Assembly: GCA_030148605.1 (NCBI GenBank) | Contig: JASBTD010000063.1 | Coordinates: forward strand, 124,001-188,000 | DNA: 64,000 nucleotides | Source: Erythrobacter sp. | GTDB lineage: Bacteria > Pseudomonadota > Alphaproteobacteria > Sphingomonadales > Sphingomonadaceae | Reading direction: 5' to 3' | Part shown: positions 52,338-56,380 of the stretch, one piece after another | Layout of the letters: each line of letters opens with the position of its first letter | How positions within the stretch are numbered: position 1 is the stretch's first letter | Notes under the pieces: model-generated | Seen by the model: only the letters and a program-made list of their open reading frames with translations | The model's database searches: none | Told to the model about the DNA's origin: nothing | Made by a program: the position numbers and the translations under genes

Positions 52338-52835
52338 TTAGCTGCGCGAACGCACGCGGGGGCTGAGCCATTCGCCCGCCTGCATCACCTTCTCCATGCC
52401 CAATTGCGCCGCCACGCTGCGGCTGAGCGTGGCGAGGTCAATCTCGGCCAGGCTCTTGCGGTATGCCTCTTCCGCGCGCCAGAAGCCCGCGGCGATATTG
52501 CACGGCAGCTTGCAATCGGCGGGCTTTGATCCGCACGGGCCGTTCTGGCGGATTTCGCTGCAGCGGAACATCGGCTCGTCACCATCCACCGCCAGCAATA
52601 TGTCGAGCAGGGTAATCTCGGCTGGCGCGCGGCCAAGCGTGTAGTAACCGCTGCGACCGCGCCCGCCGGTAACGATCCCCGCGCGCGCCAGCGCCTGCAT
52701 CTGCTTCGCCATATATGGCTCGGGCAGCTCGTGAAACTCCGCCAGCGTGGAGAGGGACAGCCCGCGGTCGGGCCATAGCGGGGCCAGCAGCGCGCAAGCA
52801 TGGCCTGCCCATTCGACGCCCTTATTGATCCGCAT
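52338..52835 (-). CDS. Rrf2 family iron-sulfur transcriptional regulator
   Basis: A 165-residue regulator with the Rrf2 winged helix (LSTLAEFHELPEPYMAKQMQALARAGIVTGGRGRSGYYTL) and four Cys in the sensing loop: Cys92, Cys101, Cys108 and Cys112 (FRCSEIRQNGPCGS...DCKLPC). In this family (IscR, NsrR, RirA) three of these bind a 2Fe-2S or 4Fe-4S cluster that senses iron, NO or redox state. It is divergent from the membrane/AhpD-like fusion across 80 bases with a clear dyad, so that gene is the likely target. Which signal it senses cannot be told. Confidence 0.9.
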   Translation of the reverse strand: MRINKGVEWAGHACALLAPLWPDRGLSLSTLAEFHELPEPYMAKQMQALARAGIVTGGRGRSGYYTLGRAPAEITLLDILLAVDGDEPMFRCSEIRQNGPCGSKPADCKLPCNIAAGFWRAEEAYRKSLAEIDLATLSRSVAAQLGMEKVMQAGEWLSPRVRSRS

Positions 52836-52880
52836 GACTGATCTGCATGACGATATACCTCTTGCCTGCCTCGTTTTATT

Positions 52881-52912
52881 CGGATATCTATTATCCAGAT
52901 ATAGGAGATCCG
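52881..52912. promoter_or_regulatory. dyad between Rrf2 regulator and its divergent target
   Basis: ATATCT (52884-52889) and AGATAT (52897-52902) form a perfect inverted repeat with a 7-base spacer. CGGAT (52881-52885) and ATCCG (52908-52912) form a second, wider one enclosing the ribosome site AGGAG. The size and AT-rich core suit an Rrf2 operator. Binding is inference. Confidence 0.5.
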
Positions 52913-52915
52913 AGT

Positions 52916-53842
52916 ATGTTTGGCAAACCTGACGCAGCAGACCGGCTGGTGCAAGTTATCCTGGCGCTGGCGGCGGCTTTTGCACTGTTCAACGGCGTTT
53001 TCATGCTCACCGATCCGTTTGGCTGGTATGATTTCGTCGATACGGTGAAGGCGTCAGGGCCGCCCAATGGCCATTTCATCCAGGATATCGGGATTGCGTT
53101 CCTCGTCTCCGGCCTTGTGCTGGGATATGCCGCGTTCAATCCGGTGATGCGCTGGGGCGCTGCGGTGGTTGGCAATCTGTTTCCAACGTTTCACGGCATC
53201 CTGCATATCTATGAAGTTGTGACCGGCATTTGCAGCCCGGACATCTTCTGGCGCGATGCGCCGGGTGTGCTGGGCCCCGCCATCGCGGTCTGGATCGTGC
53301 TGGGCATCCAGATAGGCCGCCAGCGGATCAGTTTTGCACCTCTGCCAAAGCCTGTGTTCCTGAAGTTCGCTCGCGATGCGCTGGGTGATACTTCAGCCTA
53401 TCTTGACGAGATTTCGCGCACCGGCGGTTTTGCTACCGAGGCTTTGCAACACGCCATGGCGCTGACCGGGCATCGCTATCACGCGCCAGCCGATGCGGTG
53501 ATCATGGCGGCGATGGGCGCGGTGCGAACCGAAGACTGCGGGCCGTGCGTCGAAGTGATGCGCAGCTACGCATTGCGCGAAGGCATGGACGAAGCGCGGA
53601 TCCAGCAAGCGCTCGAAGGAAGGCCGCAGACCGCCGAAGATGAACTCGCGTTCGATTTCGGCGCTGCGATTGCTGCGGGCGACATCGCACGATCTGCCGA
53701 ACTGGGTGATGACGTAGAGGCGGTATTTGGCAAGAATGCGCGCACGGAAATGGCGCTTTCGGCGGCCAGCAACCGGCTCTACCCCGCGATCAAACGCGGG
53801 CTGGGGCTGGCATCAGCCTGCGCGATCCCGCGGGCGGGGTAG
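52916..53842 (+). CDS. membrane protein fused to an AhpD/carboxymuconolactone-decarboxylase-like domain with CxxC
   Basis: A 308-residue two-part protein. Residues 1-140 hold four hydrophobic segments (about 13-32, 55-75, 81-100, 118-135) with HGILHIYE in the third, resembling small DoxX/DUF-type membrane units. Residues 150-300 are an all-helical domain with EDCGPCVEVMRSYALREGM, where Cys208-Gly-Pro-Cys211 matches the active-site CxxC of AhpD-type alkylhydroperoxidase proteins. So it may be a membrane-bound thiol redox protein. ATG at 52916 follows AGGAG. Divergent from the Rrf2 gene. I know no named family with this architecture. Confidence 0.7.
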   Translation: MFGKPDAADRLVQVILALAAAFALFNGVFMLTDPFGWYDFVDTVKASGPPNGHFIQDIGIAFLVSGLVLGYAAFNPVMRWGAAVVGNLFPTFHGILHIYEVVTGICSPDIFWRDAPGVLGPAIAVWIVLGIQIGRQRISFAPLPKPVFLKFARDALGDTSAYLDEISRTGGFATEALQHAMALTGHRYHAPADAVIMAAMGAVRTEDCGPCVEVMRSYALREGMDEARIQQALEGRPQTAEDELAFDFGAAIAAGDIARSAELGDDVEAVFGKNARTEMALSAASNRLYPAIKRGLGLASACAIPRAG

Positions 53843-53927: not shown

Positions 53928-54941
53928 GTGCCCCAATCTTCTTCCATCTATTCGCGCAAGGCTATCGAAAAGGCTCCTCAGCATTTGGATCGGGCCGAGC
54001 TGTGTGCGATCTGCAAGCTCGACATGGACGAACCTGCGGACCTTGCGAGCATGGTGGCAGAAGAAGACTATGTTAGGCTGCTTGAGACCATTGCGCATGC
54101 CGAGGAGGGACGTCCGAGAGCCCACATCAATCTAGGTGCGTCGATGCGCTGCGAAGACCTAGGGGCGGTTGGCCTTGCCTGGAAAAGCTCTCCCACGCTT
54201 ATGGATGGCTGGGATCGCGCGGAACGCTATGTCGGCGTTGTTGCTGGAGTCAGGGCGCTTGAGATCACCCGCAATGAGCAGACCACCGAAATCCGGTTTG
54301 TCCGATTGACCGACGAAGCTTCCATGGGTGCCCGGCTATCGAACGAAGCGACCTTCGCTTCCTTCACCGCAATATGCCGCGAAGCTTCGGGGCGGCATTT
54401 CAAACCAGACCGAGCGATTTGCGCTCATGAATTCATCGGAGACAAGGCGTTCCTGGAGGACTATCTCGGATGCGCGGTTGAGGATCGCGCGGGTATCAAC
54501 GCAATTGTCATTTCCAACGCTGAGCTGGCTCTGCCCAATGCCGTCGGTGACGATGCTATCTCGCGCTTCTTCGATCAGCGCGTCGAAGAAATGCTTAAGG
54601 AGATGCATTCCGTTGTTCCGATAGCGTTCCAGGTCAAATCGGAGATCGGAAAGAACCTGAGCGGCGGCATTCCCAAACTATCAGATGTCGCCAAGGCTCT
54701 CGGAATGAGCGCTCGAACGCTGCAACGCAAATTGGGCGATGAAGGTGCCGTGTTCCAGGAACTAGTAGATCAGGCCCGGCGTGAACTGTCCGAACGGCTG
54801 CTCCGAACGACGCAATACCCCTTGGTCGAGATTGCCTTCCTCACCGGCTTTGCCGAGCAAAGTGGTTTCACAAGAGCCTTCAAACGCTGGGCGGGCGAAA
54901 CACCGCGCTCGTTCCGATTGAGTGCAACATCGGGCCAGTGA
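53928..54941 (+). CDS. AraC family transcriptional regulator (OruR/GadX-like, Arabinose_bd type)
   Basis: A 337-residue regulator. An N-terminal ligand-type domain (about 20-215; LDRAELCAICKLDM, IAHAEEGRPRAHINLGASMRCEDLGAVGLAWKSSPTL) is of the OruR/ToxR-activated AraC subgroup. The C-terminal double HTH (about 245-335) has LSDVAKALGMSARTLQRKLGDEGAVFQELVDQARRELSERLL and IAFLTGFAEQSGFTRAFKRWAGETPRSFR. GTG start at 53928. It stands upstream of the NmrA-DUF1772-CPBP run on the same strand, 93 bases away, and probably controls it. Ligand unknown. Confidence 0.88.
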   Translation: MPQSSSIYSRKAIEKAPQHLDRAELCAICKLDMDEPADLASMVAEEDYVRLLETIAHAEEGRPRAHINLGASMRCEDLGAVGLAWKSSPTLMDGWDRAERYVGVVAGVRALEITRNEQTTEIRFVRLTDEASMGARLSNEATFASFTAICREASGRHFKPDRAICAHEFIGDKAFLEDYLGCAVEDRAGINAIVISNAELALPNAVGDDAISRFFDQRVEEMLKEMHSVVPIAFQVKSEIGKNLSGGIPKLSDVAKALGMSARTLQRKLGDEGAVFQELVDQARRELSERLLRTTQYPLVEIAFLTGFAEQSGFTRAFKRWAGETPRSFRLSATSGQ

Positions 54942-55034
54942 CGCGATCTGCACAAAGCTTGTCATCCTAGGGCAAGAGCACAGGCCAGCTTCCGACCTAT
55001 TCCATGCTTGTCTCCAACGAGAAGGAACAAGCCC

Positions 55035-55880
55035 ATGACTAACCAAAGCGAAGACAAGACGATCACGCTTGTGATCGGCGGAACCGGCAAGACTGGCAAA
55101 AGAGTGGCCGAACGGCTGACCGCCAAAGGCGAGAAAGTCCGCATCGGATCGCGCTCATCCATTCCCGCATTCGACTGGGACCGGGAAGCTGGCTGGGACG
55201 CCACACTCAAAGGTGTGAAGAGCATCTACATCACCTACTCACCCGATCTCGCGATGCCCGGCGCGACCGACGCCATCAGCGCGCTCGTCTGGCGCGCTAG
55301 TCTGCAAGCGGTCCAGCGTCTGGTCCTGTTGTCGGGCCGAGGAGAGGCAGAAGCACAAGCCTGCGAGCAAATCGTGAAGGATAGCGGCCTCGAATGGACC
55401 ATCGTGCGCGCCAGCTGGTTCAACCAGAACTTCTCCGAAGGTGCCTTCATCGACATGGTGCTCGGCGGAGCCATTACTCTGCCCGCAGGCGATACACCGG
55501 AGCCGTTTGTCGATGTCGATGACGTTGCCGATGTCGCGGTCGCAGCACTTACCGAAGACGGGCACAATGGCGAAATCTATGAAGTCACCGGCCCCCGGCT
55601 GATGACCATGGCGGATATTGCACACGACCTTTCAATCGCGACTGGTCGCAAGATCGCTTTCATCGACGTTCCTCATGAAGCCTTCATCGAAGGGCTGACC
55701 AGCTCCGGCGCGCCAAAGGATGTCGTCTGGATGCTCGACTACCTGTTCTCAACCGTCCTGGATGGCCGCAATGCTCATCTGACTGACGGAGTCGAGCGTG
55801 CACTTGGCCGCTCTGCCAAGGACTTTGCCGAATATGCGCGCGATGTTGCGGCAACGGGCGTGTGGAGGGTTGCGGCATGA
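55035..55880 (+). CDS. NmrA-like NAD(P)-binding protein (atypical SDR)
   Basis: A 281-residue Rossmann protein: ITLVIGGTGKTGKRVAERL is the dinucleotide loop, and there is VDVDDVADVAVAAL and an NmrA-type SGLEWTIVRASWFNQNFSE. The SDR catalytic Tyr-x3-Lys is missing, as is normal for NmrA/HSCARG-like members that bind NADP as sensors or reduce quinones. ATG at 55035 follows AGAAGGAAC. Its stop overlaps the DUF1772 gene by ATGA. AraC, NmrA and DUF1772 genes often travel together. Confidence 0.85.
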   Translation: MTNQSEDKTITLVIGGTGKTGKRVAERLTAKGEKVRIGSRSSIPAFDWDREAGWDATLKGVKSIYITYSPDLAMPGATDAISALVWRASLQAVQRLVLLSGRGEAEAQACEQIVKDSGLEWTIVRASWFNQNFSEGAFIDMVLGGAITLPAGDTPEPFVDVDDVADVAVAALTEDGHNGEIYEVTGPRLMTMADIAHDLSIATGRKIAFIDVPHEAFIEGLTSSGAPKDVVWMLDYLFSTVLDGRNAHLTDGVERALGRSAKDFAEYARDVAATGVWRVAA

Positions 55881-56380
55881 CCTATGACTGGCCACTCTAC
55901 TTCTGCCTGTTCCTCGCGCTCTGGAGCGCTGTAGTGGGAGGCGTCTTTTCCGCGTTTTCCGAGTTCATCATGTCGGCACTGCTCAAGACCGAAGCAGCGG
56001 GAGGAATCGAAGCCATGCAACACATCAATCGCGATGTAATCAGGACGCAATTTGTGGCTGGTATCCTGTCGATCACTCTACTCTCGGTTCTTTTCGCACT
56101 CTACAGCCTCGCCGTCTTTGAAGGAGCAGGACTGGTAACGCTAATACTGGCGGCTTCAGTCTATGTTCCAAGCGTTTTTCTGACTACGATTTTCGGCAAT
56201 GTGCCGATGAACAACAGGCTCGACAGCCTCGATCACAGCAACGCTGCGGCCCATGCCTACTGGCTCGAATACTGCCGCAAGTGGACTCGGCTTAACCATG
56301 TTCGGTCCCTCGGTAGCGTGTTGACCGCTGGTCTCTACATGACCGCCGCCATCGCACTTATTACCAGCGGACAGGTCTAG
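55877..56380 (+). CDS. DUF1772 (anthrone oxygenase-like) membrane protein
   Basis: A 167-residue membrane protein with four hydrophobic segments and the family's FGNVPMNNRLDSLD (about residue 112) followed by WTRLNHVRSLGS. Relatives include fungal anthrone oxygenases, but bacterial members are uncharacterised. The start at 55877 gives ATGA with the NmrA gene; the track ORF adds five codons. Probably one transcript with its two neighbours. Confidence 0.85.
   Translation: MTYDWPLYFCLFLALWSAVVGGVFSAFSEFIMSALLKTEAAGGIEAMQHINRDVIRTQFVAGILSITLLSVLFALYSLAVFEGAGLVTLILAASVYVPSVFLTTIFGNVPMNNRLDSLDHSNAAAHAYWLEYCRKWTRLNHVRSLGSVLTAGLYMTAAIALITSGQV

Follow-up and report, generated by a model that had tools for sequence, protein, structure and literature searches.

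A putative RsrR-type Rrf2 regulator facing a membrane-CMD fusion gene in Erythrobacter sp.: a probable self-contained redox unit

RsrR of Streptomyces venezuelae is an Rrf2-family regulator with a [2Fe-2S] cluster, held by two Cys residues from one subunit and by His and Glu from the other (PMC11138216), and its Trp9 shifts with the redox state (PMC11138216; PMC8204329). The oxidised form binds DNA tightly and the reduced form weakly, while binding of the apo form is undetectable. RsrR is thought to repress both its own gene and the divergent gene, and the rsrR sites of S. venezuelae are CGGATA-CCCGA-TGTCCG and CGGATA-GTCTG-TGTCCG (EMSA primer JM0141, PMC5015018). The ECF41 sigma factors control the so-called COE genes from the promoter TGTCACA-N16-CGTC; when these systems were characterised, their inducing signal was not known (PMC3426412).

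The window analysed here, a stretch of 64,000 nucleotides from Erythrobacter sp., contains two divergent genes separated by a gap of 80 bp, one for an Rrf2 regulator of 165 residues (52338-52835, minus strand) and the other for a membrane-CMD fusion protein of 308 residues (52916-53842, plus strand). Both genes had been described in an initial annotation, as a four-Cys Rrf2 protein divergent from a membrane/CGPC fusion, and both are indeed present. The Rrf2 domain PF02082 was recognised in the regulator at 83.8 bits (cut-off, 30). Four loop cysteines (C92, C101, C108 and C112), together with E8, W9 and H12, are invariant in 17 relatives, while a fifth cysteine, C14, is not invariant among them. 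The best solved relative was RsrR (6hsd, E=1.6e-35), followed by the next Rrf2 structure at 1.9e-8. Residues E8, W9, H12, C92 and C112 are aligned with E8, W9, H12, C90 and C110 of RsrR, of which we take the Cys residues at positions 90 and 110 to be those of the cluster. Based on the domain, the RsrR match and the invariant residues, the window regulator is classified as an RsrR-type Rrf2 protein and is predicted to be a redox-sensing repressor, with a [2Fe-2S] cluster as judged from the ligand positions. The IscR identity was rejected (24.2 bits against a cut-off of 207.6), as were RirA and CymR, for which the scores were far under the model cut-offs.

The intergenic region includes a predicted promoter of the fusion gene (52862-52890, plus strand), read from the sequence as a -35 element TTGCCT (52862-52867), a 17-bp spacer and a -10 element TATCTA (52885-52890). 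Relatives such as L016 and L030 have a better -35 element, TTGACA, at the same place. The main operator, ATTCGGATATCTATTATCCAGAT (52878-52900; core GGATATCTATTATCC, 52882-52896), covers the predicted -10 box, a location that would fit a repressor. It reads CGGATA-TCTAT-TATCCA, the RsrR-type repeat CGGATA-N5-TRTCCG with one departure; an 11-3-11 operator of RsrR sequence is thus located between the divergent genes, and its match to the S. venezuelae sites provides independent evidence. A second, degenerate copy, ATCCAGATATAGGAGATCCGAGT (52893-52915), is located 15 bp downstream from the main operator, with a half-site in common and 3 mismatches, and clear overlapping tandem sites 15 bp apart were detected in L109, L111, L118 and L119. 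The pattern GGAYA-N5-TRTCC gave 30 matches within 29 intergenic regions of related loci (2,676 bp) and no match in the 226 kb that make up the rest of these loci, a contrast that represents conservation and not independent prediction because the pattern was drawn from the same regions. At least one exact match was present in 23 of the 29 regions, and others of these regions had near misses (for instance, GGATATTTATTGTCT). After comparison with a longer consensus throughout the genome, the window site alone had one mismatch while all others had three; a broad regulon was rejected on account of this single good operator. Another perfect palindrome, GGATAT-N3-ATATCC, was noted at C23:12689-12711 of the genome (L133, AAGCGGATATCGAATATCCGCAT).

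The initial annotation had proposed a redox or NO defence unit. The redox part agrees with the RsrR type of the regulator, while NO defence is not supported, because a regulator of this type is concerned with redox poise and its score of 24.4 bits is far short of the NsrR model (cut-off, 182). For a unit of NO or nitrosative stress, in which an NsrR regulator would control a fusion removing NO, nitrosothiols or NO-damaged lipids, one may point to the Rrf2 family, the Fe-S-type cysteines and the ability of thiol proteins to denitrosate. Residue 8 is, however, Glu as in RsrR and not the Asp8 cluster ligand of S. coelicolor NsrR, the operator is that of RsrR, and the RsrR regulon is without NO-detoxification genes. 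The NsrR identity was therefore rejected, and this explanation of the unit is very improbable.

The fusion gene most likely starts at ATG 52916 rather than at the first in-frame ATG (52847), because AGGAG is present at 52903-52907 and the alignment of relatives supports this start. Four predicted TM helices are followed by a CMD/AhpD-fold domain at about residues 145-303. The AlphaFold2 model (28 sequences) showed helices throughout, with pLDDT of 87.9 and pTM of 0.73; its helices at about 7-32, 49-74, 76-102 and 120-134 appear to fit the four-TM part, the helix 76-102 being under a simple hydropathy cut-off. The AhpD fold of the C-terminal domain, on which the initial annotation had staked its reading in advance, was recovered in a Foldseek comparison with solved structures, the CMD proteins 3lvy, Bmp8, 2gmy and 3c1l being matched with probability 0.94-1.00 (3lvy, probability 1.00 and TM-score by target 0.64-0.67). 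Since the E-values were not significant for the whole fusion and most other matches were chance ones to helical proteins, the fold was assigned from the Foldseek probabilities and from the C-terminal profile, which matched 2ijc/PA0269, Atu0492 and 7xw1 at E=0.002-0.01 with CxxC aligned on CxxC. On the Pfam CMD model PF02627 (cut-off, 23 bits), the fusion scored 14 bits and a separate CMD relative in L039 scored 22.4 bits. When the fusion sequence was compared directly with the sequences of solved structures, it gave only chance matches (viral polymerases and a photosystem chain), and a search of plasmids gave just partial matches, to the membrane part.

The fusion carries an AhpD-type thiol pair, C208-G209-P210-C211 (53537-53548, plus strand), directly after the invariant D207, and C208, G209 and C211 are invariant in 28 fusions as well as in the separate CMD relatives of L039 and L044. 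The relay His located four residues past the second Cys (CxxC-x3-H), as in PA0269 and Atu0492, is M215 in the window and is not conserved. Because defining AhpD features, the relay His among them, were looked for and not found, the fusion is not classed as AhpD. Conserved residues were also identified in the membrane part (H53, D57, H93, H97, E100 and C106), and an extra invariant Cys302 is located near the C-terminal end. The basic linker RQR...K directly past the last helix suggests that the CMD domain is cytoplasmic.

In line with the proposal of the initial annotation that lipid peroxides are detoxified at the membrane, the fusion could be a membrane peroxidase, acting like AhpD as a reductant in the removal of hydroperoxides of lipids or other organic compounds. 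In favour of this are its CMD/AhpD fold and its CxxC pair, placed at the membrane, and the role in oxidative-stress defence suggested for the ECF41-linked CMDs (PMC3426412). This explanation is unlikely given the missing His and the lack of any peroxidase partner gene conserved beside the fusion; if the regulator is RsrR-like, moreover, the oxidised form represses, which disfavours induction by oxidants. Lipid peroxide reduction by the fusion is thus possible but unsupported. Another possibility is detoxification of electrophiles or halogenated/aromatic compounds, in which the membrane part would gather a substrate that is small and lipophilic, such as a quinone or a halogenated aromatic, for attack by the CMD domain. 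In its favour, the CMD-fold debrominase Bmp8 was one of the top matches by fold (probability 0.99), and GST, NmrA and MBL genes adjoin relatives of the membrane part. The similarity of CMD folds is, however, so broad that it does not give the substrate, and neither the window nor the relatives of the fusion show a conserved catabolic cluster next to it, leaving this proposal doubtful as well.

The family survey of 401 genomes, in which neighbour genes were found by searching all reading frames, yielded 30 full-length fusions in 28 genomes. Conserved Rrf2-fusion pairs, a search for which the initial annotation had suggested, were readily detected: 17 of the 30 fusions, at 43-71% fusion identity, are divergent from a close RsrR-type gene and have the operator in common, so that the pairing is more than chance. 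The other 13 have neither an adjoining RsrR-type gene nor an operator upstream (in one case, G305, the fusion is at a contig edge and the neighbour lies beyond), indicating that the fusion can work under other control; among those read, one or two are located behind a CoA-transferase-like gene and one behind ispG. These 13 cases might be taken to indicate that the two genes are mere neighbours, with the Rrf2 protein regulating itself only and the fusion being constitutive. Since the divergent pairing is kept in 17 genomes over this range of identity, with conservation also of the operator that overlaps the -10 box of the fusion, we give hardly any credence to such an arrangement, and the Rrf2 regulator probably controls the divergent fusion. 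On the fusion tree, the linkage to the regulator changed at least 4 times. Two genomes, G337 (L066, L067) and G398 (L069, L070), carry two fusions each; in both genomes, one copy adjoins an RsrR-type gene and the other does not.

The partner of the regulator is also variable. A total of 33 strong RsrR-type genes were identified, 17 facing the fusion, 12 facing a protein of about 205 residues, 2 beside DUF1499/DoxX and 2 others. Within the genus of the window itself, 4 of 10 sampled species carry the 205-residue partner in place of the fusion, and the partner was switched several times on the regulator tree. As the operator was kept during this switching, partner exchange is a property of this regulator group; and as the same regulator type faces unrelated membrane proteins elsewhere, the signal of the regulator need not be the substrate of the enzyme.

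The 205-residue protein has several predicted membrane helices, and its residues H9, H23, H27, H102 and H149 are invariant. It faces RsrR-type genes in 12 genomes, including sister species of the window, with operators either single or double overlapping: L108 (5790-6404, minus strand), L109 (7098-7712, plus strand), L110, L111, L112, L114, L115, L116, L118, L119, L120 and L122. The His pattern resembles that of a heme protein and is suggestive of cytochrome b/SdhC, but no Pfam, solved-chain or fold match was obtained for this protein. The RsrR-type genes beside DoxX-type genes are those of L117 (5999-7496, also with DUF1499), L121, L167 (4799-5880) and L168. In several further families of this class, RsrR-type genes share an operon with a gene for a soluble CxxC CMD protein, and in some cases the same operator directly precedes them; CMD proteins under regulators of the RsrR type are thus a recurring arrangement. 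Such operons of RsrR-type Rrf2 and CMD (PF02627) were observed in L170 (5129-5608), L171 (5100-5555), L172 (4937-5413), L173 (5059-5523) and L175 (5047-5544).

Downstream from the fusion, a separate group is located at 53928-56380, consisting of an AraC-type regulator, an NmrA-like protein (55029-55880) and an anthrone-oxygenase-like membrane protein (55862-56380). The NmrA-like gene was considered as an RsrR target by analogy with S. venezuelae and was rejected, because it belongs to this AraC-NmrA-anthrone-oxygenase group, is not conserved beside the fusion, and has no operator of its own, the window being without a second one apart from the degenerate copy described above.

In the sample of 367 genomes of the class, no single-frame fusion was detected outside the family. 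There, the membrane and CMD parts are encoded by separate adjacent or overlapping genes (L039, L161-L165 and L176), and the next gene past the split pair is a SigJ/ECF41-type sigma factor in L039, L161, L162, L163 and L165. A CMD gene is followed by such a sigma gene in L166, and a lone membrane gene precedes one in L047, L050 and the Methylobacterium plasmid L143. The promoter TGTCACA-N16-CGTC was found in the 200 bp preceding the membrane or CMD gene in all 10 ECF41-type loci (L039, L050, L143, L161-L166 and L176), which had been picked because they bear the module, against 3 occurrences elsewhere in 191 kb of the same loci. For L047, L048 and L105, in which a lone membrane gene is located behind an NmrA gene, no ECF41 promoter was detected upstream of the membrane gene. 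This promoter is likewise absent from all the fusions, from the window and from its whole genome, in which no sigma gene scored above the SigJ cut-off. Since the ECF41 gene and promoter were both looked for and not found, the unit is not classed as an ECF41 system. By sequence, it appears to be an ECF41-associated membrane-plus-CMD module that was fused and rewired to RsrR-type control; because the fusion is narrowly distributed, ECF41 control presumably came first and RsrR control later.

The four-helix membrane proteins form a family (L039-L053, L105-L107 and L143) with sub-threshold similarity to DUF4345 and the motif HF..DIG ... H...H..E...GIC, and are not recognised by Pfam or NCBIfam at the cut-offs. 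The family recurs in NmrA, CMD, GST and ECF41 loci of Alphaproteobacteria, with NmrA-like, soluble CMD and glutathione transferase genes repeatedly found beside the single membrane genes. Its plasmid-borne members are annotated merely as hypothetical proteins.

Taken together, we consider it fairly likely that the locus is a self-contained redox unit, composed of a repressor of the RsrR group and a membrane CMD thiol protein that is the fused form of an ECF41-type module. The regulator would be a dimer in which [2Fe-2S] clusters are bound by a pair of Cys residues from one subunit together with Glu8 and His12 from its partner. As the operator overlaps the -10 box of the fusion gene, we propose that the regulator represses both the fusion and itself; the oxidised form would repress, and reduction or loss of the cluster would lead to release and derepression. 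Simple induction by oxidants is then not the obvious expectation, because repression should come from the oxidised cluster if the regulator behaves as RsrR does. The CGPC pair, on the predicted cytoplasmic side, most likely cycles between dithiol and disulphide, and may exchange electrons with a site in the four-helix part formed by the conserved His, Asp and Glu residues. This site (H53, D57, H93, H97, E100 and C106) would lie towards the outer face and may bind metal, heme or quinone. The fusion would thus correspond to the two-gene membrane-plus-CMD module kept under ECF41 sigma factors in other Alphaproteobacteria. A wider proposal is put forward tentatively, as one that may well fail: Alphaproteobacterial [2Fe-2S] regulators of the RsrR type, all acting at local operators of their own, would control interchangeable membrane or CMD redox proteins, including the ECF41 membrane-CMD module once it had been fused and passed from ECF41 to such a regulator. 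In this scheme, the fusion would act in the membrane as a thiol oxidoreductase that connects the site near the outer face with cytoplasmic dithiols, and the inducer would be reductive, not oxidative, imbalance.

In the literature searched, which included few subscription journals, no paper joins Rrf2/RsrR with CMD proteins in this way, and no description was found of RsrR-type targets outside Streptomyces. The earlier statement that no such system had been described thus holds, within that literature, for the fused RsrR-controlled form; it does not hold for the unfused membrane and CMD pairs of ECF41-COE loci, which are partly described. The unit is a new combination of known parts, namely a fused membrane-CMD module under RsrR-type control, and the RsrR-fusion pair provides a functional setting for the four-helix family. 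Since this membrane-CMD module occurs with each of the two regulators, one of which has known [2Fe-2S] sensor chemistry, a testable guess can be made at the ECF41 signal.

Among the known systems, RsrR (Sven6563) with its divergent nmrA in S. venezuelae (PMC5015018; PDB 6HSD, 6Y42) resembles the window locus in Trp9 and the Glu8, His12 and Cys positions of the regulator, and in the CGGATA-N5-TRTCCG operator, the divergent genes and the two close sites between them. The window regulator has an extra invariant Cys101, and its neighbour is the membrane-CMD fusion while that of RsrR is an NmrA-type protein. Furthermore, 117-630 sites were mapped for RsrR in S. venezuelae (PMC5015018), whereas the window regulator apparently has one good site in its genome, representing an apparently one-site version that is simpler to study than the original with its 630 sites. 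The ECF41/COE loci with TGTCACA-N16-CGTC contain unfused relatives of both domains, the CMD partners carrying CxxC (PMC3426412); in the window, by contrast, the two domains are fused, neither an ECF41 gene nor its promoter is present, and an RsrR-type repressor is predicted to be in control. None of the COE classes that this study names corresponds to the four-helix partner (PMC3426412). The AhpD/CMD proteins PA0269 (2o4d), Atu0492 (2gmy), SMU.961 (3lvy) and Bmp8 (6ohi) have the C-terminal fold and CxxC in common with the fusion, which differs from them in adding a four-helix membrane part and the invariant Cys302, without the relay His.
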